Source: Deferrivibrio essentukiensis
GTDB lineage: Bacteria > Chrysiogenota > Deferribacteres > Deferribacterales > Deferrivibrionaceae
NCBI RefSeq assembly: GCF_020480685.1
Contig: NZ_JAJAFU010000008.1
Span: 1 to 64,000 of the forward strand
Length of the DNA: 64,000 nucleotides
Direction: 5' to 3'
Shown one piece after another: positions 5,641-23,783 of the stretch. Each line of letters begins with the position of its first letter. The first letter of the stretch is position 1. Under the pieces are notes generated by a model, which was given only the letters and a program-made list of their open reading frames with translations, was not told the origin of the DNA and did no database searches. A program made the translations under genes and the position numbers.

Positions 5641-6528
5641 ATGTTAGAAATTTTAATAGCAGACGATGATAAGGATGCTCAAAATCTACTTGGCTTATAC
5701 ATAAATAAGCTCGGATTTAAAGTTCATTACGCTTCCAACGGTATAGATGCACTTAATAAAATAAACGAATTAAATATTTCGATTGCCTTGCTTGACTGGA
5801 TGATGCCCGGTATGAGCGGAATAGAGATTACACAAAAAATAAGAGAATCAAAGATTGACAGATATGTATATATCATTATGGTTACTGGAAAATCTGAAAA
5901 AGATGACACAATTGAGGCACTCCATAACGGCGTTGATGACTATATAGTAAAACCTTTTACATTCCAAGAATTAAAAGTCAGGATTTTTGCTGCAGAAAGA
6001 ATAATAAAATTAGAAAACAAACTTAAAAATGCTTACAACAAACTATACAATGAAAGTATACATGACGTATTGACAGGAGTGTTAAACAGAAAAGCACTTA
6101 TGGAAAAAATTGAAGACTACAACAATAAAAATAAATCACTTGGTATCATAATGATTGATATTGATAACTTTAAAGTCATTAATGATACATATGGGCATCT
6201 TGTCGGTGACCAAATATTAAAAGAATTTTCCGCCATAATATCAAATACTATAAGAAAGTCGGACTTTGTAGGAAGGTACGGTGGGGAAGAATTTTTAGCC
6301 GTTATTCCTGACTTGGATGTAATTGAAGTTAAAACAATTGCTGAAAGAATAAGAAAAAATATAGAATCAGAAACATTTCATATCGGCTCACTAAGCCTTA
6401 AAATAACAGCAAGTCTGGGCGTATATGTTTTAACAGAAAAAACTAAAATTGAAGACGCTATAAAATTAGCTGACGATGCACTATATGAAGCTAAAAAATC
6501 TGGCAAAAATAAAGTTATAGTTTATTAA
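5641..6528 (+). CDS. Response-regulator diguanylate cyclase (REC-GGDEF)
   Basis: Makes the second messenger c-di-GMP from two GTP when its receiver domain is phosphorylated; PleD/WspR-like layout. REC domain at about 1-120 with phospho-acceptor D52 (LLDWMMPG) and the KPF lysine; a short coiled linker; then GGDEF domain with NFKVINDTYGHLVGD (about 176-190) and active site GGEEF (214-218). An inhibitory site RKSD (205-208) sits five residues before it, so product feedback is expected. The Asp ending GHLVGD is kept, as in true c-di-GMP enzymes and unlike the cGAMP-making Hypr group, which has Ser there. No kinase is adjacent. The neighbouring PilZ gene is a candidate receptor. Confidence 0.93.
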   Translation: MLEILIADDDKDAQNLLGLYINKLGFKVHYASNGIDALNKINELNISIALLDWMMPGMSGIEITQKIRESKIDRYVYIIMVTGKSEKDDTIEALHNGVDDYIVKPFTFQELKVRIFAAERIIKLENKLKNAYNKLYNESIHDVLTGVLNRKALMEKIEDYNNKNKSLGIIMIDIDNFKVINDTYGHLVGDQILKEFSAIISNTIRKSDFVGRYGGEEFLAVIPDLDVIEVKTIAERIRKNIESETFHIGSLSLKITASLGVYVLTEKTKIEDAIKLADDALYEAKKSGKNKVIVY

Positions 6529-6544
6529 TGGCACATTTATTGCA
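6529..6544 (+). promoter_or_regulatory. Sigma-54 promoter, full match to consensus
   Basis: TGGCACATTTATTGCA matches the -24/-12 consensus TGGCAC-R-N4-TTGCW with GG and GC separated by exactly 10 bases. The predicted start (about 6555) falls at the ATG of the PilZ gene (6556), which lacks a Shine-Dalgarno site, so the mRNA would be leaderless. The element begins in the intergenic gap just after the cyclase stop. Confidence 0.6.
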
Positions 6545-6555
6545 ATAACTAAAAT

Positions 6556-7179
6556 ATGAATATTATTCAAGATGTTACAGTAGTTGGTTGTAGTATTCAC
6601 CCAATTACACCCAACTACATAATTTGTTCATTTTGGCTAACTGATAACAATACTGGCTCTACCAGTATGTTTTTAATTGAAAAAAGCCAATTTATAAATT
6701 TGACCAACTTTCACACAATTAGCAAAAAAAATGAAATTAGCTATAAATGCGTCTATTGCAGCAATAATAAATGTTTGATAAAAAGTTCTAAAAATTTTGA
6801 GGCATGTCTAAATAAAATTTTTTACTCACCAAGAAAATATGACAGAATTGAAACCAATTTAAAAGGCCTTATTAAGACCAACTTACATGCATATGACTGT
6901 CAAGATATTATTATAAAAGATATCAGTCTTGGCGGCATAAAGTGTATTCTCACCAACCAAGAAGTAAGCCTTCAAGTTGGTGAAAATGTTTATATCACAC
7001 TTTGTACGTGCGGTTTTAGAGAGGAATGTGTCTGTAAAAAATGTTTCAATTTTAAAACAATACTGGATAATGTGCTCGAAGGGGTAGTTGTCTGGAATAT
7101 TGGCACAATGTATGGCATAGTCCTTGACCATGTTAATAAAAACAGCTCTAAAATAGGCGAAATATTAGAAAATATTTAA
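6556..7179 (+). CDS. Cysteine-rich PilZ-domain protein
   Basis: A likely cytoplasmic c-di-GMP receptor. The PilZ signatures are present: RKYDR (R93 and R97, the RxxxR motif) and DISLGG (122-127, the DxSxxG motif). The surrounding sequence is unusual: 13 cysteines in 207 residues, including CVYCSNNKC (65-73) before the PilZ domain and CTCGFREECVCKKC (150-163) inside it. These spacings suggest a bound metal or redox-sensing thiols, which is not a usual PilZ property. It follows the diguanylate cyclase by 27 bp and has a sigma-54-type promoter of its own. With the start site predicted at the ATG, the start codon may be leaderless, or translation may begin at Met38 (6667). Target unknown. Confidence 0.8.
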   Translation: MNIIQDVTVVGCSIHPITPNYIICSFWLTDNNTGSTSMFLIEKSQFINLTNFHTISKKNEISYKCVYCSNNKCLIKSSKNFEACLNKIFYSPRKYDRIETNLKGLIKTNLHAYDCQDIIIKDISLGGIKCILTNQEVSLQVGENVYITLCTCGFREECVCKKCFNFKTILDNVLEGVVVWNIGTMYGIVLDHVNKNSSKIGEILENI

Positions 7180-7254: not shown

Positions 7255-8583
7255 TCATATAGCTACTTTATTGTTTAAAACAACCGTAATTGCGCTATTT
7301 ATAATGTTAGCTATTTTCATAGAATTAATATTATGTACGATATCATTATATTCATTTTCCGTTAAAGTTAAAAAAACTTCCACAAGTGCAGGGTCAAAAT
7401 ATGAGCCGGAATAAGACTTAATAACATCCATGGCTTCATTAAAGTTGTAAGCCTTTTTATAAGGTCTCTCAGACACAAGAGCATCAAAAACATCTATAAT
7501 ACTAAAAATTCTCGCAATAAATGGAATCTCCTCGCCCTTGAGTCCATGAATATAACCTGTCCCATCCCATTTTTCATGGTGGTACAAAATTAAATCTTTT
7601 ACCGTAGATAAGACCTCGTCACTCTCCACCAACTTATAGCCCATCAACACGTGCTTTTGCACTATCTTCCTCTCAAAGTCCAACAATGCCTCATTTTTCA
7701 AAATAATACTATCAGGAACACTTATCTTTCCTATATCATGTAAATAGGCTCCTATAACAATCTGGCCAGTTTCATAACTGTTTAACTTTAACTTATTTGC
7801 AATATTTAACGATATCAGCGCGACTCTTTCAGCATGCCCTTCAGTTTCAACATCTTTCATTTCAAGTACTTTTGACAGACTCTTAATACTATTGGAATAA
7901 GAAATGCCCAATTTATCATAGGAAACTTTCAGCTTGTTATCAAAATTATCAAGGGTTTTAATTGCATTTTTGAACTCTCTATAAAGAATTACATATACTA
8001 TAAAAGGTATAAGTGAAGCAAAAAGAATAACTGCAAACGTTTGAGGTCCAAGTAAAAATAATTTTGGAGCTACTGTATAATACTCAGCAACGGCCACAAC
8101 TTTACCGCTTTTGGTAATCGGGATATATGTTTCAAGTAATAAGCCTTTATCCAAAAGGTAGTAGTTTTCATTTTTGCCGGGATTTACATATTCACTTATT
8201 ATTTTATTTTTCTTAATCGATTCTATAAGCTCTTCGTTGATAAATTTTCTACCGATGAAAGATTTGTTGGCAAAGCTATATAATATTTTATTACCAACCC
8301 ATATCCTAAAGTCAACTATATCCCCATAATTATACAAATCATTAATGCTATCCTCAATTAAAGGGTAATTCGGTTTAAACTCACCCTTCTCATCTATTAT
8401 GTTAGCTAATTCAAGACGAGTCAATTTATCAAGCCTTTCAATAAATTTGTGTTTATTACCACTTAATTCCACAAAATATACTATTACCGGTAGTATCATT
8501 AAAAATAATATTGTAAAAGTTAATACAAATACAAACGTCCTCCTATAGAAGCGTTTTTGTAATTTATTAACAAATTCGCTCAT
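7255..8583 (-). CDS. Membrane HD-GYP phosphodiesterase with periplasmic sensor
   Basis: Predicted cyclic-dinucleotide phosphodiesterase. One membrane helix at about residues 16-38, an extracytoplasmic sensor region of roughly 140 residues (Cache-like, not firmly assigned), a second helix near 180-202, a linker, then the HD-GYP domain: H250, HD at 282-283 (LHDIGKI), HH at 335-336 and GTGYIHGLKGEEI from 341. The namesake GYP is GYI here, so specificity or activity may differ; metal ligands are intact. Its ATG overlaps the stop of the multiheme cytochrome gene (TAATG), so the two are translationally coupled, tying cyclic-nucleotide turnover to the electron-transfer locus. It converges on the PilZ gene. 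Confidence 0.88.
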   Translation of the reverse strand: MSEFVNKLQKRFYRRTFVFVLTFTILFLMILPVIVYFVELSGNKHKFIERLDKLTRLELANIIDEKGEFKPNYPLIEDSINDLYNYGDIVDFRIWVGNKILYSFANKSFIGRKFINEELIESIKKNKIISEYVNPGKNENYYLLDKGLLLETYIPITKSGKVVAVAEYYTVAPKLFLLGPQTFAVILFASLIPFIVYVILYREFKNAIKTLDNFDNKLKVSYDKLGISYSNSIKSLSKVLEMKDVETEGHAERVALISLNIANKLKLNSYETGQIVIGAYLHDIGKISVPDSIILKNEALLDFERKIVQKHVLMGYKLVESDEVLSTVKDLILYHHEKWDGTGYIHGLKGEEIPFIARIFSIIDVFDALVSERPYKKAYNFNEAMDVIKSYSGSYFDPALVEVFLTLTENEYNDIVHNINSMKIANIINSAITVVLNNKVAI

Positions 8584-10209: not shown

Positions 10210-10225
10210 TGCAAATTATATACCA
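10210..10225 (-). promoter_or_regulatory. Possible sigma-54 promoter before the 534-residue cytochrome
   Basis: On the minus strand TGGTATATAATTTGCA keeps GG and GC ten bases apart, with TTGCA at -12. The predicted start, about 10199, would give a 12-base leader just containing GGAGG. The -24 box is TGGTAT rather than TGGCAC, and the 39-bp gap is AT-rich, so chance is possible. Confidence 0.35.
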
Positions 10226-10226
10226 T

Positions 10227-11201
10227 TTATTCATAAGACTTATATTTTTTTATTCTCGAATTAAAAAGATCAGCTATATAAATTTCATCTTCATAACAAT
10301 AAATTCTTTCAGGCATATAAAATTCGTCATCATGAGAGCCATTCTTCCCTATGAAAAACAATAAATCTCCATTTATGTTAAAAATTTGGAAATTATCAAA
10401 ATCGGTATCAGTAATATAAACTCTTTTATATTTGTCTATGCATATCCCTTTGGGCTTGGAAAAATAACCCGGACTGTTACCTATGCTGCCAAAGCTTCCT
10501 AATAATTTTCCGTTATAGTCAAACTTTAAAACTCTAAAATTCATGGAGTCAAGCACAAATAAAGTCCTTTCATCAGGGATTACGTCAATATCAATGGGAA
10601 AGTTCATTTCATAATTAAACTCTTTTAATATATTCCCGCTAAAATCTGTCTCCAAAATATTATTTCTTTCTTTGTCACTTATAAATATCACATTATTTTT
10701 GCGGTCAACTTTAATAGAAGTTGGTTTCTTCACAGGGATATCAAAAAAGGATATTTTATCTGTAATAATATTAACTTTAATAATTTTACCTAAATCTGAA
10801 TCAACCAAATAAAGATCATTACCATCAAAATCAAGATCAACTATCGACTTTAAATGTGTTGAATTAAACTCTCTGATTGTCTTAAGCCTAAAATTATTTT
10901 TATCAAAAACATATAATATACCAAACACTATATCACTTACTGCAATATAATTATCATTTGCAGCAACTGCAAAAGGTCTAAACAAAATAGGCACAGCATC
11001 ATAACCGTATCCAAAGAATTTCTTAAAAAAACTGTAATTTTCTTCTATAGTTTTACCGTCAATAATTTCTACCAACGCAACTTTTGGGTTAGTAATATCC
11101 GGGTAAAAATATTCTAAAAAGTTAGCAGTGCTCTTTTCTTTATAAGCACAACCACTAATTATTAACAGTATTATCAATAACTTTAACGTCAAACGTACCA
11201 T
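10227..11201 (-). CDS. NHL-repeat beta-propeller lipoprotein
   Basis: Predicted lipoprotein of 324 residues: a signal peptide ends in the lipobox IISGC, giving an acylated cysteine near residue 18. The rest is a series of beta-propeller blades of the NHL type, recognisable by repeated patterns such as GICIDKYKRVYITDT, FSKPKGI and IYIADLFNSRIKKYK. Such propellers are protein-interaction platforms and commonly accompany multiheme cytochrome genes of metal-reducing bacteria; enzymatic activity is not indicated. I chose the ATG at 11201 because GGAGAAGG lies just upstream and the signal peptide then begins cleanly. It overlaps the parvulin gene by 47 bases and precedes the 534-residue cytochrome by 39 bp. 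Confidence 0.82.
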   Translation of the reverse strand: MVRLTLKLLIILLIISGCAYKEKSTANFLEYFYPDITNPKVALVEIIDGKTIEENYSFFKKFFGYGYDAVPILFRPFAVAANDNYIAVSDIVFGILYVFDKNNFRLKTIREFNSTHLKSIVDLDFDGNDLYLVDSDLGKIIKVNIITDKISFFDIPVKKPTSIKVDRKNNVIFISDKERNNILETDFSGNILKEFNYEMNFPIDIDVIPDERTLFVLDSMNFRVLKFDYNGKLLGSFGSIGNSPGYFSKPKGICIDKYKRVYITDTDFDNFQIFNINGDLLFFIGKNGSHDDEFYMPERIYCYEDEIYIADLFNSRIKKYKSYE

Positions 11202-12105
11202 TAGCCTTCTCCATAACCTCAGCATATCTTTTTTTAAATATACCGTTATGCATAATTCTCTTAATTTCCTCTTTTACCTCTTGAAACGGTATTATCTCAG
11301 GAGGAAATTCTTCTTTGACATGGACAATTAAAAATCCAAAAATATTTTTATATGGACCGCCATACTGACCCTTCTCTAATTTTTCAATATCTTGTATTGG
11401 GTAATTTTTAGAGAATCTATAAATTCTTTCCTCTTTTGGATACTTTTTATCAGAACACTCTTTTAGCGCAGATTTATCACCTTGTTGAAGTCTTTGCTTA
11501 ACTTCATTGGCAAAATTTTCTTTTTCTTTCATCTGCTCAGGCTTTAAGTTTCTTGCATCAGCCTCTATTAAACAATTATCTACCTTCCAAGATGAGCCAA
11601 GATTAAACATGTCTTTGTTATTATTGTAGTAATCTAATAGCTGGCTATCTGGAATATCTGTAGATTCAATAGCTTCTTTAAAAGCATTCTTTATATTTAA
11701 ATCTATATGTGTTAACAAAAGATCCTTCTCAGTTATATAATTTTGTGCTAATGCTTCTTGAAATTCATTATCACTTTTAAACCTTTTCCTAATATCTTTA
11801 ATCACATTGCTTGCTTTTTCTTCTGCCTTTTTATAAACTTCAGGTTCAGTTTTATGCAGATATAAACTTAATTTTCTTGACTCTACTGCAGCTTTAAAAG
11901 CATCCTTCCAATAGTCAGCTTTATTAAGGCTTGCCCCATGAAATTTTCCTATTGGCAACACTGTATTAACAAAACTATTAACTTCAAATTGAGTAATCGA
12001 AGTATTGCCAATTTCAGCAACAATATTATTTGCAAAAACATTAACACTAATTGCGAGACTTATAAAAATAGTCAAAATTCTTACTAATCTTGAAATATAC
12101 AACAT
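11155..12105 (-). CDS. Periplasmic PpiC/SurA-type peptidyl-prolyl isomerase
   Basis: Likely folding helper in the periplasm. The 316-residue product has a signal peptide (about 1-25, SVNVFA), a helical SurA-like N-terminal region beginning IVAEIGNTSITQFEVNSFV and a parvulin-like domain in the C-terminal half, where EKLEKGQYGGPYKNIFGFLIVHVKEE matches the usual end of that fold. The parvulin domain looks shortened and somewhat diverged, so isomerase activity is uncertain. AGGAG eight bases upstream supports the ATG at 12105, even though it overlaps the beta-barrel gene by 59 bases. Its position suggests it helps fold the barrel or the cytochromes. Confidence 0.8.
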   Translation of the reverse strand: MLYISRLVRILTIFISLAISVNVFANNIVAEIGNTSITQFEVNSFVNTVLPIGKFHGASLNKADYWKDAFKAAVESRKLSLYLHKTEPEVYKKAEEKASNVIKDIRKRFKSDNEFQEALAQNYITEKDLLLTHIDLNIKNAFKEAIESTDIPDSQLLDYYNNNKDMFNLGSSWKVDNCLIEADARNLKPEQMKEKENFANEVKQRLQQGDKSALKECSDKKYPKEERIYRFSKNYPIQDIEKLEKGQYGGPYKNIFGFLIVHVKEEFPPEIIPFQEVKEEIKRIMHNGIFKKRYAEVMEKANGTFDVKVIDNTVNN

Positions 12106-14416
12106 CTTCTGTTCTCCTCATGTCGTTTTCGACAGTTATATTCTTTCGATAGCCAATTGCAAGTCTAAATACCCTTGTGTAATATTTAGCAATAAACTCA
12201 TAATCATCCCCTTTATTGCTACTCTTATCAAGCTCTTTCTCGTACGAGAATATACTTTCCAACCTTGATGTAGGTTGATAAGTAAGTTTAAATTTAAAAT
12301 AGTCATCATTTTTAAAACTTCCGGTAGCATCATCCCTATCTCTTTCAAAACCAAACTCTGCAATCAAATATGGTGAAACTGTCGGAAAATATTTATATTT
12401 TATTAGTTTTATATTTGCATTATAAGTTTCAACCTTCTGCTCATAATCATAGGCTCTATAAATCAATTCACCAATAACATTTCGAGCATTGATTTGATAA
12501 TTAAAATCTCTAATAGTATTTTTAGTCTTTTCAGTACTATTTGCATATTCATATATTTCTTTAGAATAAAATGCTCTAAAATTATTTATTTTATAATTTA
12601 TTAAAAGTTCAATACTATTTAATCTTTTAGTATAGTTATTTTTTTCAGTTTCTTTAGAATATAGTGGGAAAAATGATAACTTTCCTTTTTTACCAAGAAT
12701 TTCACTATAAAGCATAAACTCGTATTTATCCCTTTTATCATAACCGTTACCATTACGTGTCTGATATTTACTATTTAGATATAACTTTTTATCTAAAGTA
12801 TAGTAACCATCTTTAGACTCAAAAAACATTTCATCATAAAACTCATTATCGTAATCATTGTGGCTGTATCTAAATGCCTTATCAAAGATATAAACATAAG
12901 GTCTAATTTCAAATCTATCTTCTGCACTGAAAATATATTCGTCATTATAATCAAGATTCCCTCGAGGGTCATCTGTAATTGTATAATTATAACTAAGGTA
13001 ATTAATATCAAACCTATTTTTAAAATATTCAGAAGTATTAAGAAAATAACCCGTACTTCCACCTATTATTTTTTTATCATAAGTTCCATAGTTTAAATTA
13101 TTAACACTAAATTCGAGATCGTTAGAATCACCTGATATAACATTTATAATTCCATCAACGGATGTACCGAAGTTAATTGTATACTGTCCGCCAGAAGATA
13201 ATACTATCAAACCCAAACCGGCATTTGAGCCATCAATATTTATTCCTGTCAAATCAATGGTTATAGAAGAATTTCCGGTATTTAAAATTAATAAACTGCC
13301 ACTCCCCTTAAGTCCACCTGATAACAAATTGGTAATTCCGATATAATTATACGTATTATTAATGTCATTTAAGTCAACTTTTTCTTTACCTATCGAAAAT
13401 TTAATGTAAAAAGGTAAATCTATGGTGTCATAGTTATAAGCAAAATCATAAAAATAGCCTTCTTTTATGTCATTGGTATATTTACCTTCATCATACTTAT
13501 ATGAGAAATTATTCTGTAATGAATTTACCCCTTTTTCATAGCCAAAATCAGCAAATAAATGTCGGCTTTCATAATAAGCACCCTTATAAAATTCTTTTAT
13601 TTTTTCACCATATCCGCCAACCTTGAAATCTCCAAGCTTATAGTTTACAGAATTTCCAAAAACATCAACAAATCCAAGTTTATACACATCTTCTTCTTCA
13701 TTGTCTGAGCTGTCAACATAATCTTTTTTATTTGACTCATAATATAGACTAAAATTATTCTTTATACCTGCACCAGTAGATAGATTTGTTTCATTTTTAA
13801 GATAACTGGCATTGTCAGTAGTATTTTTATAATCATAAACAGTATAGCTTGACATTAATGTCAAGCTACCCGGCTTGAAAAAATAATAATTAGTAGTAGA
13901 GCTTTTCTGATAGTCGCCTAAAGATTTAATTATACCTTCTAATTCACTGACGTCAGACTTTATCTTAGAAAGAGAATTAAAGTATATATCGTTATCAATA
14001 TCTGTTTCTTTATTTGCATAATGTTCGAATGACATGGAAATTTTATACTTTGGGATGTTAAACCTTAACTTACTTTTTACATTATAAAATGTATCAGATT
14101 CGCTATCAGATTTATAAAAAGGGGTACTAATCTTCATATTATCATTATAAAATCCTAAATCATATCTGTTAACCTTTGCATCAAGATCTATACTTCCCAA
14201 ACGCCTTCCATAAAAATCACGATTAAAAGATGTTTCAAGAAACAAGTTATCCAATTGATTTGATTCCGTTTTTTTAGTCTGATTATCGCTAAAACCATAT
14301 TGTTGTAATTGTAAATCATAACCAGCATTTAAATAGAGATGACCAGCAAAAGTAATTTTATCTAAGAATATAAAAATGAGTAAAGACAACAATAAAATAT
14401 AAAATTTATTTATCAT
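12047..14416 (-). CDS. Large outer-membrane beta-barrel, candidate cytochrome-conducting porin
   Basis: A 789-residue exported protein: a signal peptide (about 1-24, ending TFA) and then long stretches of alternating polar and aromatic residues typical of transmembrane beta-strands (for example FKLTYQPTSRLESIFSYE and VYFKISKNFDYFYK at the end). Length and context are like the barrels that sheathe multiheme cytochromes in porin-cytochrome conduits (MtrB/PioB and analogous proteins), but I see no motif proving homology. A Gly/Ser/Ile-rich insertion at about 375-455 (ITIDLTGINIDG, GQYTINFGTSVDG) may be a loop domain. I use the ATG at 14416; a GTG lies three codons earlier. It overlaps the small tetraheme gene before it and the parvulin gene after it. 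Confidence 0.75.
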   Translation of the reverse strand: MINKFYILLLSLLIFIFLDKITFAGHLYLNAGYDLQLQQYGFSDNQTKKTESNQLDNLFLETSFNRDFYGRRLGSIDLDAKVNRYDLGFYNDNMKISTPFYKSDSESDTFYNVKSKLRFNIPKYKISMSFEHYANKETDIDNDIYFNSLSKIKSDVSELEGIIKSLGDYQKSSTTNYYFFKPGSLTLMSSYTVYDYKNTTDNASYLKNETNLSTGAGIKNNFSLYYESNKKDYVDSSDNEEEDVYKLGFVDVFGNSVNYKLGDFKVGGYGEKIKEFYKGAYYESRHLFADFGYEKGVNSLQNNFSYKYDEGKYTNDIKEGYFYDFAYNYDTIDLPFYIKFSIGKEKVDLNDINNTYNYIGITNLLSGGLKGSGSLLILNTGNSSITIDLTGINIDGSNAGLGLIVLSSGGQYTINFGTSVDGIINVISGDSNDLEFSVNNLNYGTYDKKIIGGSTGYFLNTSEYFKNRFDINYLSYNYTITDDPRGNLDYNDEYIFSAEDRFEIRPYVYIFDKAFRYSHNDYDNEFYDEMFFESKDGYYTLDKKLYLNSKYQTRNGNGYDKRDKYEFMLYSEILGKKGKLSFFPLYSKETEKNNYTKRLNSIELLINYKINNFRAFYSKEIYEYANSTEKTKNTIRDFNYQINARNVIGELIYRAYDYEQKVETYNANIKLIKYKYFPTVSPYLIAEFGFERDRDDATGSFKNDDYFKFKLTYQPTSRLESIFSYEKELDKSSNKGDDYEFIAKYYTRVFRLAIGYRKNITVENDMRRTEDVVYFKISKNFDYFYKSRN
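13845..13868. repeat. 24-bp perfect palindrome inside the beta-barrel gene
   Basis: The two halves, TAGCTTGACATT and AATGTCAAGCTA, are exact reverse complements with no spacer. It lies in coding sequence and may be coincidental; a hairpin in the long operon mRNA or a protein-binding site are alternatives. Confidence 0.5.
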
Positions 14417-14915
14417 GACAATCACTGCAAAGACTATTTAAACCATCTCTTAATAATTTATCTTTCTTCCCATGAGGATCATGACAAGTGGCACACTCAA
14501 CCTTATTATTAGAAAACAAAGGCAGTTTGTCCAATACTTTTTTGTTTATCACAGCAATATTTTTTTTCACATTTTTAGCAGTATCAATCGATATTGAAAA
14601 AGGGTGCAGATTATTATGATTTATATAATCAGGATGGCAGGAAAGACACACTTCGGTTATCTTTTCAATACTCTTAATATTTTTCTTAAATTCTTTCACA
14701 TTTATAGTGGGCGTTGCATACTCGTAAATCTTACTTTTACCCCAGAAAGCTTCAATGTCATACGATTTTCTTATCTTATGACAATACTTACAATATTGTT
14801 TGCCTTCGTCATCACTCTTACCCATAAAAGTAAACCTATGAGAATTTGATACTGCAAAACAAGTTGCAGAAAACATCAAAAAGATCACAAAAATATACCT
14901 ACAACTATTCCCCAT
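14406..14915 (-). CDS. Small tetraheme c-type cytochrome
   Basis: Exported 169-residue cytochrome with four canonical sites: CKYCH, CLSCH, CATCH and CSDCH. The signal peptide spans about residues 1-22. The order and spacing (CxxCHK, CLSCHPD, HPFSI, VECATCHDPHGKK, LCSDCH) match the tetraheme domain of the two following-upstream paralogs and of the N-terminus of the 534-residue cytochrome, although this copy has lost the PLWN motif (AFWGKS instead). AAGG precedes the ATG. Its stop overlaps the start of the beta-barrel gene, so barrel and cytochrome are made together. Candidate haem protein for filling or docking to the barrel; this is inference. Confidence 0.88.
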   Translation of the reverse strand: MGNSCRYIFVIFLMFSATCFAVSNSHRFTFMGKSDDEGKQYCKYCHKIRKSYDIEAFWGKSKIYEYATPTINVKEFKKNIKSIEKITEVCLSCHPDYINHNNLHPFSISIDTAKNVKKNIAVINKKVLDKLPLFSNNKVECATCHDPHGKKDKLLRDGLNSLCSDCHDK

Positions 14916-15082
14916 AAAATAAACCTTGTTAATTATTTTTAACTAAATCAATGTCTATTCGTATAAAAAAACTCTATAATCAATATCTATAAATAAGTTA
15001 TTATGCAGTATAATATTAAACTCAGAAATCCTTCTTACTTTAAAAAATCCATACATCATCACACCCCCAATTCTCAAAAACC

Positions 15083-15793
15083 TCATTTAGTCGAGTGGCA
15101 ATCAGCACAAAATGTCTTAAGATCAGTTGTCCTTAGTAACTTATTATATGGTATTGCAACTTCAGCAGATACAGTCCCATAAAATTTATAAAACAGCATA
15201 TCCGTACCTACTGGTCCTTTTTTGTGAGGGTCATGACATGTTATACATTCTACCTTACCATTAACAAGCTTGTAACTACCATTAGTGCCAATAACTTTAC
15301 CATTATTTACATTACTACTAAGGCCTGAATCTTTATTATAATCATATTCTATTCCTATTGGATGATTTGCTTTGCTGTAGTCTATTTCCAATTTACCCAT
15401 ATTGAGGCTTGCAAAATAACTCTCAGTATATCCAGTTGATTCTGACATCCCATCATGACAAGCCATACAGGCTTCTGATGATGGGTTAATAGATGTGTCT
15501 TGAATATTATCAAGAGTATTGGTAGGGCTAGTATATGCCGAATATGCCGCACCATCATCATATTTATTTACATCGTTCCACAAAGGTATTTTAGTCCCTG
15601 CATTATGAGGCTTATGGCAAGGAGCACATGGACTAACATCAGCACCGTCGACCCTCGAAAAATTATGAGGGCTTGTATGACCATCAGGAGTAAAATTATG
15701 ACAGTTATATGTTGAACAACTTGACGCATATAAATAGCCGGAAGTTAATAGAAAAAAAGAAATTACAAGGAATTTGAATTTAATTTTACACAT
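15083..15793 (-). CDS. Tetraheme c-type cytochrome, filament-subunit-like (copy 2)
   Basis: Exported 236-residue cytochrome with CAPCH, CMACH, CITCH and CADCH, plus CSTYNCH (CX4CH) near the mature N-terminus as a possible fifth site. It closely parallels the next upstream gene: CHKPHNAGTKIPLWND, then a YSAYTSPTNTLDN stretch, CMACHDGMSES, HPIGIEYD and CITCHDPHKKG. Tetraheme proteins with this motif order form extracellular filaments in Geobacter (OmcE type, from memory). I start at the ATG at 15793, after AGGTGG; an open frame reaching 15847 runs through a strong hairpin and is unlikely to be translated. A 167-bp gap separates it from the 169-residue cytochrome. Confidence 0.87.
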   Translation of the reverse strand: MCKIKFKFLVISFFLLTSGYLYASSCSTYNCHNFTPDGHTSPHNFSRVDGADVSPCAPCHKPHNAGTKIPLWNDVNKYDDGAAYSAYTSPTNTLDNIQDTSINPSSEACMACHDGMSESTGYTESYFASLNMGKLEIDYSKANHPIGIEYDYNKDSGLSSNVNNGKVIGTNGSYKLVNGKVECITCHDPHKKGPVGTDMLFYKFYGTVSAEVAIPYNKLLRTTDLKTFCADCHSTK

Positions 15794-15807
15794 ATCCCAC
15801 CTCATGA

Positions 15808-15858
15808 TTAATAGCTTATCAAGGCGGGGTACTTTACCCCGCCACAAAAAGCTATTAA
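15808..15858 (-). terminator. Nested stem-loop between two tetraheme cytochrome genes
   Basis: The inner stem GGCGGGGTA / TACCCCGCC (15823-15831 and 15835-15843) has a 3-base loop. An outer arm pair, TTAATAGCTT / AAGCTATTAA (15808-15817 and 15849-15858), encloses it and includes the stop codon of the upstream gene. No clear U-tract follows in the direction of transcription, so it may be a partial terminator or an mRNA-stabilising hairpin that raises the first cytochrome over the rest of the operon. Confidence 0.65.
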
Positions 15859-16457
15859 TTGTTATGGCAAGTCTGACAAAGTGTTGTTTTTGATGCCCTT
15901 AAAAAGTCTCCATTTGTATCATCATGTGGATCATGACAAGTTGCACACTCTAAAGTATCAGAAGAAGCCCCATAAAATTTAAAACCTGCTGACTTAACAG
16001 TTGCTAAAGCTACCAATGCAGTATTAGTTCCTGCATCATCATACTTAATAGCTACAGGGTGCTGGCCACCTGAATTATTGGTATAATCTAATTTCAAACC
16101 TGTAGTAATGCCTGCTTTTACTGGTAGCGCACTTGCAAAATCAACATTTACAGATTCTACCATACCATCATGACAAGCCATACAAGCTTGTGAAACATTA
16201 CCCAAAGTACTTCCAGGTGTTTGATTCAAAGCATCTGTTGGAGATGAATACGCAGCATAAGTGGTATCATCAAACTTGTTTGAATCATTCCACAAAGGGA
16301 TTAATGTACCTGCGTTGTGAGGTTTGTGACAACCTGAACATGCAGTAGTACCGTAATTATTGCCTGCACTTGAGAAGTCGTGTGCAGTCCCCGCAACCGC
16401 TGCAAAAAGCATGGTTGGTAAAGCCAATAAAGCTAACAACATTAAAAGTTTTTTCAT
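15855..16457 (-). CDS. Tetraheme c-type cytochrome, filament-subunit-like (copy 1)
   Basis: First gene of the sigma-54-controlled unit: an exported 200-residue cytochrome with CSGCH, CMACH, CATCH and CQTCH. A clean signal peptide (LALPTMLFAA) gives a mature start near VAGTAHDFS. The mature protein carries the motif series GTAHDF, CHKPHNAGTLIPLWND, AYSSPTDAL, CMACHDGM, HPVAIKYDD, ECATCHDPHDD and LCQTCHNN, resembling OmcE-type tetraheme filament subunits as I remember them. GGAGG sits seven bases before the ATG. Strong promoter, strong ribosome site and a downstream hairpin all suggest it is the most abundant product of the unit. Filament formation is a hypothesis. Confidence 0.9.
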   Translation of the reverse strand: MKKLLMLLALLALPTMLFAAVAGTAHDFSSAGNNYGTTACSGCHKPHNAGTLIPLWNDSNKFDDTTYAAYSSPTDALNQTPGSTLGNVSQACMACHDGMVESVNVDFASALPVKAGITTGLKLDYTNNSGGQHPVAIKYDDAGTNTALVALATVKSAGFKFYGASSDTLECATCHDPHDDTNGDFLRASKTTLCQTCHNN

Positions 16458-16504
16458 AAATACCTCCTGTCTGTTTTATGAAACAAATTTGTTGAATTAC
16501 TTAT

Positions 16505-16520
16505 AGCATTAACTGTGCCA
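16505..16520 (-). promoter_or_regulatory. Sigma-54 promoter of the outer cytochrome unit
   Basis: On the minus strand TGGCACAGTTAATGCT gives GG and GC exactly 10 bases apart, with only the first base of the -12 box (A for T) off consensus. The predicted start, near 16494, leaves a 37-base leader ending in GGAGG before the ATG at 16457. A gene for a sigma-54 activator ends 287 bp upstream. Confidence 0.75.
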
Positions 16521-16682
16521 ACAATTGTCATTTTTTTATGAACCATTGCCTACTTTAATAATCTAACGTATCGCACTATATAAAGGTGGTTCACTTATTT
16601 TCATACCAAACTTGTAAGATTTTTTGGCTTGCCAGAAAATTGATCACTTATTATTGATACAAACTGTATACAAAATACAATA

Positions 16683-16736
16683 TTTTGACACAGTGGTGGT
16701 ACACTTTTGACACACTTTTGAAACAGATTTGAAACA
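16683..16736. repeat. Tandem 11-bp direct repeats, probable activator-binding array
   Basis: Four copies of TTTTGAMACA-type decamers start at 16683 (TTTTGACACA), 16705 (TTTTGACACA), 16716 (TTTTGAAACA) and 16727 (ATTTGAAACA); a degenerate copy (TGGTGGTACA) fills 16694. All are 11 bp apart, so they face the same side of the helix. They lie about 190-240 bp upstream of the predicted sigma-54 start, the usual distance for enhancer sites. Confidence 0.65.
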
Positions 16737-16806: not shown

Positions 16807-18108
16807 CTATTTAATGCCGTGCCTGTCCAGCATTCTATATAGTGTAGATCTGCTAATTCCCAAAGCTTCCGCTACTTTGACCTTATTGCCATTATAATCA
16901 TCAAGGGCTTTTATTAAGGCATTCTTATCGACAAGTACATTCTCTGCCTTGTCAATTGGACAGAGATTGAGGTCTGTTTTTAAAATAACACCGCTATCTT
17001 TAGCTTTTACTATTGCATTTCTGATAACATTTTCAAGCTCTCTAATATTCCCGGGAAAGTCGTATTTTAGAAGACATTTTTCAGCTTCTTTGGAAAGTTT
17101 CAAAATTTCTCCACCTTCAGCATATTTTTTTAGAAAATAATTGGCGAGGGGAAGTATATCTGACTTTCTTTCCCTCAATGGCGGTAATTTAATTTCAGCA
17201 ACCTTTAATCTAAAATATAAATCTTTTCTAAACTTCCCATCTTTAACCTTATTTTCAAGGTTTACATTGGTTGCAAAAACATACCTTACATTGAGCTTTA
17301 TTTCCTTTTTACCTCCTACTCTCCTAATAGTGTTTTCTTGCAAAACTCTCAATAATTTTACCTGAATATCAAGCTCAAGATCGCCTATTTCGTCTAAAAA
17401 TAGAGTCCCATTGTTTGCAAGTTCAAAATATCCCTTTTTATCTTTATCTGCGCCTGTAAATGAGCCTTTTTCATATCCAAAAAGTTCAGATTCCAAAAGA
17501 GAAGCCGGAATCGCATTACAATTTACGGCAAAAAACTCATTATTCTTTCTGTTACTATACTTATGAATTAGGTTAGCTATTACTTCTTTACCTGTTCCAC
17601 TTTCACCCAAAATTAAAACTGGCATATCACTTTTAGCTATCTTAGCCAACTCCTTCAATATTTGCACAAAGCTAGGAGAATTGGCTATAATTTCGTCTTT
17701 ATTTTCTGTTTCTGTGTTGTTATTGTTTTCTACCGAAATTGCAGCCTCTTGCCTCTTTTCATAATTTTCAATTATTCTTTTTAAATCTTTAATTTTGAAA
17801 GGCTTGCTCAAATATTCATAAGCCCCCTCTTGTATTGACTTTATTGTCAGCTCGCTTGTACCAAAGGCAGTTATTAATATAAAAATAGCATCGTTACCTT
17901 CACTTTTTATCCTTCTGAGAAGCTCAAGTCCGTCAAGCTCATTCATAACAAAGTCACATATTATAACGTCAAATTTTTCCTTTTTTAATATATCGTAGGC
18001 GTGTATTCCATCATAAGCGACTTTAACATCATAGTCTTTTTGAAGCCCCATTTTAATTATTTCTCTTGAGTTTTTGTCGTCATCAACCACTAACACTTTA
18101 AGCTTCAT
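16807..18108 (-). CDS. Sigma-54-dependent response regulator (NtrC family)
   Basis: Phosphorylation-controlled activator that opens sigma-54 promoters by ATP hydrolysis. REC domain (1-120) with phospho-acceptor D52; AAA+ domain with Walker A GESGTGKE (168-175), the sigma-54 contact loop GSFTGA (215-220, a Ser variant of GAFTGA), Walker [11 protein letters not shown] and an arginine-finger region [12 protein letters not shown]-terminal Fis-type helix-turn-helix ending [17 protein letters not shown]. It overlaps the kinase gene by 11 bases. The nearest sigma-54 promoter lies 287 bp beyond its stop, with tandem repeats between, so it probably activates the tetraheme cytochrome unit. The Ser in the contact loop is tolerated in some family members. 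Confidence 0.94.
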
Positions 18109-19462
18109 AATAATTAACCGGTATCCTTATCCCAAAAGTTGTATTTTTATTGTTTGATTCAAAGTATATTTCACCCTTTAAAGCCTCTGCCAACTCTTTA
18201 CAAACGGATAATCCGAGGCCGGTACCTTTGCCGGTTTTTTTAGTGGAAAAAAACGGATTAAATATTTTATCAATAACCTCTTTCGGCACACCTTTCCCAT
18301 TGTCTGTTACCGAAATATCCACGATTGGCTTCTTGATTATAGATTTTACTTCAATTTGACCATTATCAGCTCCAATACTATCAGCTGAATTTTTTATAAA
18401 ATTAAAAAGTATCTGCTCTATAAATCCCCTATCAGAAACGATGTCATAATCTGATGTAGAATAAGTAATTTTAATATTGTCAGAAATTGTAAAAGATATA
18501 TCCTGAATCAAATTCTCTATCAGCACTTTCAAGTTAAACTCTTCTATATTTGGGTCAGGTTTTTTTGAGGCATAAAGATAATTTTTGATTATAGTCTTCA
18601 TTTTAGATGTCTGTCTTACAATACTTTCTGCCCTTTCTTTTACAAACTCATCTTCATACATTTCAAGCAATAAATCAGCGTTGCCCAAAATAACGTGAAT
18701 AGGCGTGCCAAGCTCGTGAGCCATTTTAGATGCAAATTGACCAAGAAGTGAAATTTTTTCAAGCTGATTAACTTTTTCATTAAGAGCAATTTCACGTTCT
18801 TCAATTTTTTTCACGACCAAATACAGCATAAAAATATATGCTATAAAACCTAAAAGAGTAAATATGGAAGCCCTCACTCTGACATGATTAATATTATGTA
18901 TTACATTGGTAGCATTTTTATAAACTTCCATTACCCCTTTTATTTCGCCGGAAAAAACAACAGGTATATAAATTTCTTGTACATATTCAACATTTTTTAT
19001 ATTCATGAGATAATGAGCGCTTTCAACTTTATCTATATGTTTAATCTCATAAAAATTTTCCCCTTTTAAAGCTATCTTCAGCCCATCACTTTCATTATTC
19101 AAGCTTAATAACTGCTTTGAATTTTTCACAGCTAATCGCTTACCTTTATTATCATAAACTACAATATCAATTAATTCCGGTTCAAAATCAAGACTGTTAA
19201 AAAGTGTAGAAAAGTCAATATACTCATTCCATAAATTTCTATATACATAAAGACTTGTCTTACTCATTAATATATTTCTAAACTTTGCATCAAAAGATTC
19301 CTGTTCACTTTTAATAATAAAATTTTTAAAATCTTGATAAATCATAATATTCATAAGAAACAGCAATCCGAAAACAATAGTTACAGTAGTAATAAGAAAT
19401 TTCTGTGTCAAAGATATCCTGTCAAAGAAATACGCTAACCTGCCAATTATATTTTTAATCAA
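18098..19462 (-). CDS. Membrane sensor histidine kinase
   Basis: Likely kinase for the sigma-54 regulator that follows. The 454-residue chain has a membrane helix near the N-terminus, an extracytoplasmic sensor of roughly 140 residues, a second helix, then a kinase core: H-box MAHELGTPIHV, N-box NFIKNSADSIG, G1 DNGKGVPKEV and G2 GKGTGLGLSVCKELAE. The signal sensed is unknown; an unfamiliar periplasmic domain in this locus might sense redox state or an electron acceptor. The start is not an ATG: I prefer the TTG at 19462, which follows AGGTGG and comes right after the stop of the propeller lipoprotein gene; another TTG at 19489 has no ribosome site. Confidence 0.9.
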   Translation of the reverse strand: MIKNIIGRLAYFFDRISLTQKFLITTVTIVFGLLFLMNIMIYQDFKNFIIKSEQESFDAKFRNILMSKTSLYVYRNLWNEYIDFSTLFNSLDFEPELIDIVVYDNKGKRLAVKNSKQLLSLNNESDGLKIALKGENFYEIKHIDKVESAHYLMNIKNVEYVQEIYIPVVFSGEIKGVMEVYKNATNVIHNINHVRVRASIFTLLGFIAYIFMLYLVVKKIEEREIALNEKVNQLEKISLLGQFASKMAHELGTPIHVILGNADLLLEMYEDEFVKERAESIVRQTSKMKTIIKNYLYASKKPDPNIEEFNLKVLIENLIQDISFTISDNIKITYSTSDYDIVSDRGFIEQILFNFIKNSADSIGADNGQIEVKSIIKKPIVDISVTDNGKGVPKEVIDKIFNPFFSTKKTGKGTGLGLSVCKELAEALKGEIYFESNNKNTTFGIRIPVNYYEA

Positions 19463-19463
19463 T

Positions 19464-20555
19464 CTACCACCTAAGCATAGGCTCTTCAACCGTCATATTT
19501 TTTCGAGCTTTCTTGTATATATCACTCAAATATTGAAAAACAACCAATCTTCTATTCGGTGCATCAAGCACATATATCCTATCCTTTGAATCAATAATTA
19601 TATCTTTGGGATTGTTAAATCCCCCCAAATATACAGACGGCTTCTGATCGCCCATATAGTATAAAAATGTTCCATCCTGACCATATATTTTAAACCCATT
19701 TGAAGCGATGTCAACTATATATATGTGCCCTTCAGAGTCAAAAGCGATTCCGTTAGGAAAATTTAGCGCCCACAAATTATCCCCCGGCTCGAGTAAATCT
19801 TTTATAAGATTACCATCTTTATCATAAATAAAAACCTTACCGACAAATTTTGAAACAGCAAAAATTCTCCCGGTGCCATTTTCAACAGCCAAAGCAACTG
19901 GTGCAGGAACTTTTTCAATACTCTTTACAAACTTGCCATCGAGAGTCAGTATGTCGATTTTACCAAACAGCTGATCTGACACATATATTTTACCATCATA
20001 AACATAAAGGTCTGTTATATCTTTATAAAGTCCCGTAGAATCAAAACTTCCGCCACTTTCAAATTTCTTAAGATCTTCATCTTTAACTTTCTTACCATAT
20101 GACCATAAGACCTTTTTATCTTCATTTATTTCCATTATACTTCCAGAAGCTCTGTTAGCAATAAAGATTCTTCCATCGGGAGTAACATCAATGGCACATG
20201 GCATTATACTGCCAAAATTCAAATCTCTAATCTCCTGTTTTACAAAGTCAATAATCTGTATCTTAAAGGCAATCGGAGAAGCAATATAAACTTTACCTTT
20301 CCCGTCAGTAGCCATTCTGATTGACCTGTTTTCTATCCACTTAACATTAACATCACCAACTAATTCTTTTAAGATTGCACTCTTCCCGCTCTCCTTTTTT
20401 GGGAATTCATTAGAATTGGTAATAACTCTCAAAGCCTGTATTTTTGGATTTGCTGACTCTTTTGGCCATACATACTCATCCAATACAAATTTCGGAGGTT
20501 TAGAAGCACAGCCAAATATAACAAATACAATAAAAATAAAAAATAATTTCCTCAT
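19464..20555 (-). CDS. NHL-repeat beta-propeller lipoprotein
   Basis: Predicted 363-residue lipoprotein: signal peptide MRKLFFIFIVFVIFGCASK with lipobox VIFGC. The mature part shows about six propeller blades of the NHL type, for example CAIDVTPDGRIFIANRASG, ALNFPNGIAFDSEGHIYIVD and PKDIIIDSKDRIYVLDAPNRRLVVFQY. TAGGAG eight bases upstream fixes the ATG at 20555. It sits between the octaheme cytochrome gene and the histidine kinase gene and probably shares their mRNA. Propeller lipoproteins may tether or dock cytochromes at the outer membrane; this is context-based inference. It is similar in plan, but not closely in sequence, to the other two propellers in the locus. Confidence 0.83.
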   Translation of the reverse strand: MRKLFFIFIVFVIFGCASKPPKFVLDEYVWPKESANPKIQALRVITNSNEFPKKESGKSAILKELVGDVNVKWIENRSIRMATDGKGKVYIASPIAFKIQIIDFVKQEIRDLNFGSIMPCAIDVTPDGRIFIANRASGSIMEINEDKKVLWSYGKKVKDEDLKKFESGGSFDSTGLYKDITDLYVYDGKIYVSDQLFGKIDILTLDGKFVKSIEKVPAPVALAVENGTGRIFAVSKFVGKVFIYDKDGNLIKDLLEPGDNLWALNFPNGIAFDSEGHIYIVDIASNGFKIYGQDGTFLYYMGDQKPSVYLGGFNNPKDIIIDSKDRIYVLDAPNRRLVVFQYLSDIYKKARKNMTVEEPMLRW

Positions 20556-23732: not shown

Positions 23733-23783
23733 TAAAATCCTCCAGCAATTTTTAAGAACGAATTAAGCAATTTATATACCAAA

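Follow-up and report, generated by a model that had tools for sequence, protein, structure and literature searches.

In Myxococcus xanthus, Nla28 uses repeated 8-bp half-sites, often three to five per promoter, upstream of -24/-12 promoters, and mutation of a crucial half-site abolished binding or lowered activity (PMC9765219, PMC7910581). Most response-regulator sites in Desulfovibrio vulgaris are inverted repeats; DVU2394 and PhoB (DVU1083) bind direct repeats, and the validated DVU2394 motif was found elsewhere only in D. vulgaris Miyazaki (PMC3333781, PMC4641369). At gcvH2 of Pseudomonas aeruginosa, GcsR has three consecutive dyads upstream of an RpoN promoter, which have been read as hexamer loading (PMC4894688). 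Sigma-54 response regulators usually target neighbouring genes (PMC3333781, PMC4641369).

A cluster of 19 genes in Deferribacter desulfuricans and D. autotrophicus has been proposed to act in metal reduction or Fe(III) reduction (PMC6896113, PMC13186404), and the Fe(III)-reduction system of D. autotrophicus has been called unresolved (PMC6896113). In text searches, "sigma" was absent from PMC13186404 and "sigma-54" from PMC6896113; thus, the control region of the cluster is apparently undescribed in these two papers. How Deferribacterota regulate extracellular electron transfer also appears undescribed in the literature covered. D. desulfuricans is reported to be unable to reduce iron.

Here, we analysed a window of 64,000 nucleotides (the whole stretch of DNA under study) from contig C8 of a 2.36-Mb genome (G000), which belongs to Deferribacterales by its gene content and its relatives. 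A multiheme cytochrome cluster spans about 31.3 kb to 7.3 kb of the window; it lies on the minus strand, is read leftward, and matches the 19-gene Deferribacter cluster (PMC6896113, PMC13186404) in gene order and in the 28-heme and 10-heme cytochromes that it encodes. The outer unit begins with a tetraheme (four CXXCH) cytochrome gene (15855..16457, minus strand) and continues (10227..15847, minus strand) with genes for two further 4-CXXCH cytochromes, a 792-aa protein, a PPIase and an NHL protein, an order that is kept in loci L050, L051 and L053. The 792-aa protein (12047-14425, minus strand) stands at the porin place. Searches of Pfam and NCBIfam gave zero matches for it, and we infer from its position between cytochromes that it is porin-like. 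By the published suggestions for the homologous cluster, the outer unit would serve extracellular electron transfer, for example Fe(III) reduction. After the 10-heme gene comes a gene for an HD-domain (HD_5) protein (7255-8583, minus strand), and a G011 protein with a similar start is found at the equivalent place.

A 13-heme gene heads the unit that is closed by the genes for a sensor histidine kinase (18098..19489, minus strand; HisKA and HATPase_c in Pfam) and for its proposed partner, an NtrC-type response regulator (16807..18108, minus strand). The regulator has a receiver, an AAA+ sigma-54 activation domain and a Fis-type helix-turn-helix (Pfam), and scored under every NCBIfam equivalog cut-off shown. 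Its nearest solved full-length relative is 4l4u, which is labelled an NtrC-family regulator. The sigma-54 contact loop (GAFTGA) is present as GSFTGA at residues 215-220; it reads GAFTGA in five other aligned orthologs, including that of G001, which is 99% identical to the regulator of the window, and GSFTGA has likewise been found in DVU2394 (PMC4641369). In the AlphaFold model (mean pLDDT 82.8; helices 395-404, 409-416 and 420-429), the DNA-binding domain is an ordinary three-helix one, whose structure does not explain why the repeats should be direct. We also considered whether dimers are prevented because this domain is unusually short; this was not supported, the paralogs and 4l4u aligning over the same length.

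The intergenic region that runs from the regulator gene, which ends at 16807, to the first tetraheme gene, at 16457, holds a sigma-54 element and a row of repeats. The -24/-12 promoter of the outer unit, P2 (TGGCACAGTTAATGCT; 16505..16520, minus strand, GG-N10-GC), has one mismatch to TGGCAC-N5-TTGCW, and orthologous promoters are found in G001 (TGGCACGGTTAATGCT), G009 (TGGCACAAATAATGCT), G016 (TGGCATAGTTTGTGCT) and G011 (TGGCACATTTTCTGCT). One rpoN-type DNA-binding-domain match exists in the genome (PF04552, E 1.9e-59). On the minus strand, from 16736 down to 16682, the array reads TGTTTCAAATC TGTTTCAAAAG TGTGTCAAAAG TGTACCACCAC TGTGTCAAAAT. Within it, five words of the TGTNTCA type follow one another every 11 bp (16686-16736), namely half-site 1 (TGTTTCA, 16730..16736), half-site 2 (TGTTTCA, 16719..16725), half-site 3 (TGTGTCA, 16708..16714), the weak half-site 4 (TGTACCA, 16697..16703) and half-site 5 (TGTGTCA, 16686..16692), all on the minus strand. 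An outlying sixth half-site (TGTATCA, 16655..16661, minus strand) is nearly in phase, 31 bp or about three turns from half-site 5. Between them lies the palindrome TGTATACA (16665..16672), whose spacing of 19-20 bp to the last main half-site is fixed in the three lineages of G000, G009 and G011; the palindrome is possibly part of the same complex as the array.

Tandem Repeats Finder gave a period of 11 at 16701-16736, and the 11-bp periodicity of the intergenic region was matched by none of 500 dinucleotide shuffles. Only 0.1 matches to the three-unit word pattern (≤3 mismatches) are expected per 64 kb. The initial annotation had described a minus-strand -24/-12 element at 16505-16520, four clear repeats and one weak one at an 11-bp period, and, beyond them, genes for an NtrC-type activator and a histidine kinase. 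The conserved, nearly consensus promoter, the five words with their period of 11 and the expected domains in both proteins (16807..18108 and 18098..19489) bear this out. Of its repeat word, TTTTGAMACA, the core stood (TGANACA on the plus strand, TGTNTCA on the minus strand); the restriction to A or C did not, any base occurring there in relatives, nor did the flanking T-run and A-run, which are not conserved.

We consider it likely, judging from sequence comparison, that the local two-component regulator uses the array as its upstream activating site and would thereby switch on the porin-cytochrome unit. The kinase (18098-19489) would phosphorylate the regulator, whose Fis-type DNA-binding domains would fill the TGTNTCA half-sites that are lined up on the same strand and the same face of the helix. 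The occupied array would then load an AAA+ oligomer, which would loop to RNA polymerase-sigma-54 at 16505-16520 and open the outer-unit promoter. In this scheme, binding to the array, control by phosphorylation and looping are all predicted steps. That NtrC-type regulators use mostly inverted half-sites (PMC3333781) counts against the proposal.

We compared the array with those of the G009, G016 and G011 lineages, whose regulators are 55-61% identical. On one strand, TGTNTCA occurs six times in G009, nine times in G016 (in two arrays) and four times in G011, where 0.18, 0.22 and 0.33 copies are expected by chance for this word, which was first noticed in G000; the opposite strand has zero copies. 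The arrays of G009 and G016 also contain an equally weak word, TGTAGCA, two words ahead of the promoter-proximal end. Strict words are spaced by 10, 11, 21, 22, 31 or 32 bp. Over all arrays together, a period of 10.65 bp fitted best (mean pairwise cosine 0.94), a value reached by none of 2000 random placements; therefore, the words share one face of B-DNA. If in-phase words with one mismatch are counted, five to seven slots are filled per array. The inverted (dyad) half-sites that are typical of bEBP enhancers were not found, the strict words lying all on one strand in the four lineages.

It might be supposed that the array consists of phased A-tracts that bend DNA and is no protein site, since AAA follows TC in four of the five window units, once per turn. 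However, the array of G009 has an A3/T3 run in only one of seven spacers with TGTNTCA intact, and the spacer positions are low in information. The relatives thus retain the word and lose the A-runs, and we rejected this explanation as hardly credible. The array might also act at the RNA level at the 3' end of the regulator transcript, as a terminator or as protein-binding RNA repeats; it starts 19-73 bp past the regulator stop codon across genomes, and the sequences of G000 and G009 form more stable folds than their shuffled versions (z about -3). However, the folds of G000 and G009 differ, G011 has none (z +0.3), Rfam gave zero matches, and the period of 10.65 bp fits B-DNA. With neither an Rfam match nor a common fold, an RNA element is scarcely probable and was rejected.

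The position of the array relative to the promoter is in line with an upstream activating site. The gap that separates the last word from the promoter GG measures 173, 282, 183 and 705 bp in the four lineages, and 576 bp for the second array of G016. The array thus lies at the variable upstream distance (173-705 bp, by position) that is typical of a bEBP enhancer. Its sequence is kept when the promoter distance shifts by more than 500 bp, as is predicted for an enhancer that acts through looping; a contact activator at a sigma-70 promoter would not predict this. REP-like insertions (...TCATTGCGAGGA...GACGAAGCAATCT...) were observed between array and promoter in two families (L053, 8100-8700, minus strand; L050, 10180-10480), where they widen the gap. 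The second array of G016 has TGTATCAAATGTGTATCA in common with the first.

We searched 45 Deferribacterales genomes for the array and for the regulator ortholog, the latter being told from all paralogs by a drop in score between 528 and 342 bits. Where one mismatch at most was allowed, the array was found at this locus only, in G000, G001, G002, G009, G016 and G011. All six readable genomes with the ortholog have it, and all 38 that lack the ortholog lack the array too (Fisher P 1.4e-7, for lineages that are not independent). In a seventh genome with the ortholog, G018, the contig breaks off 18 bp past the first base of the regulator stop codon, at the point where the array is expected to begin; its sequence near the regulator end closely matches G011 as far as the start of the G011 array. 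The G002 regulator on a 6.7-kb contig (L049, G002:C24) is 99% identical to that of the window, and three other G002 regulators are only 70-79% identical. Because of these identities, the contig is probably mis-binned or recently transferred and G002 is no independent witness; therefore, four independent lineages from three families carry the array.

The genome scan for repeat arrays that had been proposed in the initial annotation was thus run, and the array proved confined to this locus. In G000, the three-unit pattern matched here only; the reversed-pattern control with two mismatches gave two matches over all genomes together. A wider regulon was sought in G000 with a 20-bp two-unit pattern and two mismatches and was rejected; the count was about twice that of the reversed-pattern control, and the sole perfect matches were the two at this locus. 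Of 30 sigma-54-like sites sampled in G000, this one alone had an 11-bp repeat of such strength upstream, scoring 25 against 19 for the runner-up. The seven genomes that have the regulator ortholog are also those that have the 371-aa NHL gene of the cluster, so the distribution of the array is that of the whole cytochrome cluster and alone cannot separate the regulator from the cytochromes. When named genomes were scanned with an alignment of the NHL protein, only two loci were found, both already in the genome set.

OmpR/PhoB-type regulators are the classic users of 11-bp direct repeats. In the PhoB box, two direct repeats of 7 bp are separated by a 4-bp spacer (PMC3333781), and a winged-helix protein of this type is a serious rival as the ligand because the array has the same geometry; moreover, the genome has three OmpR-type regulators. 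However, none of their genes is near the array. For two of them, 39 and 42 genomes out of 45 hold an ortholog, yet 38 genomes are without the array. The third was looked for in G009, the genome with the fullest array, and was not found there. In addition, the array is unique per genome and its promoter distance varies by more than 500 bp. None of the three regulators is linked to the array or tracks it, and on this distribution we rejected an OmpR/PhoB box as very unlikely. Another sigma-54 activator of the genome might instead bind the array, at least 12 further NtrC-type regulators scoring in G000. However, the occurrence of the array matches that of the neighbouring regulator exactly, and no other regulator was found to be so distributed among the paralogs compared, which were only some of them; we give this explanation a small probability. 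The neighbouring regulator as the ligand of its enhancer is supported because the sites are phased, conserved, unique and co-occurring with it, because they lie at variable distance from a conserved sigma-54 promoter, and because an rpoN-type gene is present.

Two further conserved sigma-54 promoters were found in the cluster. P1 (TGGTATATAAATTGCT; 23766..23781, minus strand) lies 34 bp ahead of the 13-heme gene and is kept in G009 (TGGCACATAATTTGCA, a perfect match), in G016 (TGGTATGGAATTTGCT) and more weakly in G011 (AGGTATGTTTTTTGCT). P3 (TGGTATATAATTTGCA; 10210..10225, minus strand) lies ahead of the 10-heme gene and is kept in G009 (GGGCATGGTATTTGCT) and G011 (TGGTATCGTTCTTGCT); a counterpart was looked for in G016 and not found. 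Both are in short intergenic gaps; of the 50-bp stretches on a single strand of the window, about 0.5% contain matches as good as these. At 6529-6544 (plus strand), a perfect match to the sigma-54 consensus (TGGCACATTTATTGCA) lies directly between the gene for a receiver-GGDEF protein (5641-6528) and that for a PilZ-domain protein (6556-7179), which suggests that a c-di-GMP effector may be under sigma-54 control.

Since P1 and P3 are conserved sigma-54 promoters too, control probably extends beyond the outer unit. No array was found at either of them; thus, the same site may be used from about 6.5-7 kb, the site may not be needed, or a different activator may act there. Because the unit of the kinase-regulator pair starts at P1, positive feedback on the pair is likely. 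The earlier claim that the two-component pair drives the outer unit has comparative support from co-occurrence, phasing, variable distance and the lack of tracking by OmpR-type regulators; in view of P1 and P3, the proposed control is probably wider than that claim. A bolder and rather doubtful possibility is that, within one AAA+ ring, every DNA-binding domain reads a half-site of its own in head-to-tail order (one per turn, five to seven slots) rather than loading as part of a dyad-bound dimer, and that a single mid-cluster enhancer serves three sigma-54 promoters over about 14 kb. Together with one enhancer and the three conserved promoters, the single kinase-regulator pair would make a specific candidate switch for a suspected metal-reduction cluster. 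The array would also offer a clean natural model for the loading of a sigma-54 activator ring on unidirectional, helically phased half-sites.

Compared with known systems, the array is like the PhoB box in having a 7-bp word and a 4-bp spacer as a direct repeat with an 11-bp period (PMC3333781). However, the PhoB box is bound by an OmpR-family winged helix, and no such regulator tracks the array. GcsR is similar in its several consecutive sites upstream of an RpoN promoter, but its unit is an 18-bp inverted repeat, TGTAACG-N4-CGTTCCG (PMC4894688), unlike the one-strand half-sites of the array. DVU2394 of D. vulgaris is likewise a two-component sigma-54 regulator with a direct-repeat site and a nearby energy-metabolism operon (PMC3333781, PMC4641369); its site is reported as a direct repeat, in contrast to a row of five to seven, and the operon differs. 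Nla28 shares repeated short half-sites upstream of a sigma-54 promoter, binding of the array by the regulator being predicted here. However, the Nla28 half-site is CT(C/G)CG(C/G)AG with irregular spacing and a large regulon, whereas the array has TGTNTCA with 10-11 bp phasing on one strand and at one location per genome. The initial annotation had called direct repeats unusual for a sigma-54 activator; they are uncommon but not unprecedented, Nla28 and DVU2394 being known (PMC9765219, PMC3333781). Because direct-repeat sites are already known for these NtrC-type regulators, the array is not new in kind. At the level of sequence, what is new relative to Nla28, DVU2394 and GcsR is its regularity (one word per turn on one strand), the number of five to seven and the single location per genome.
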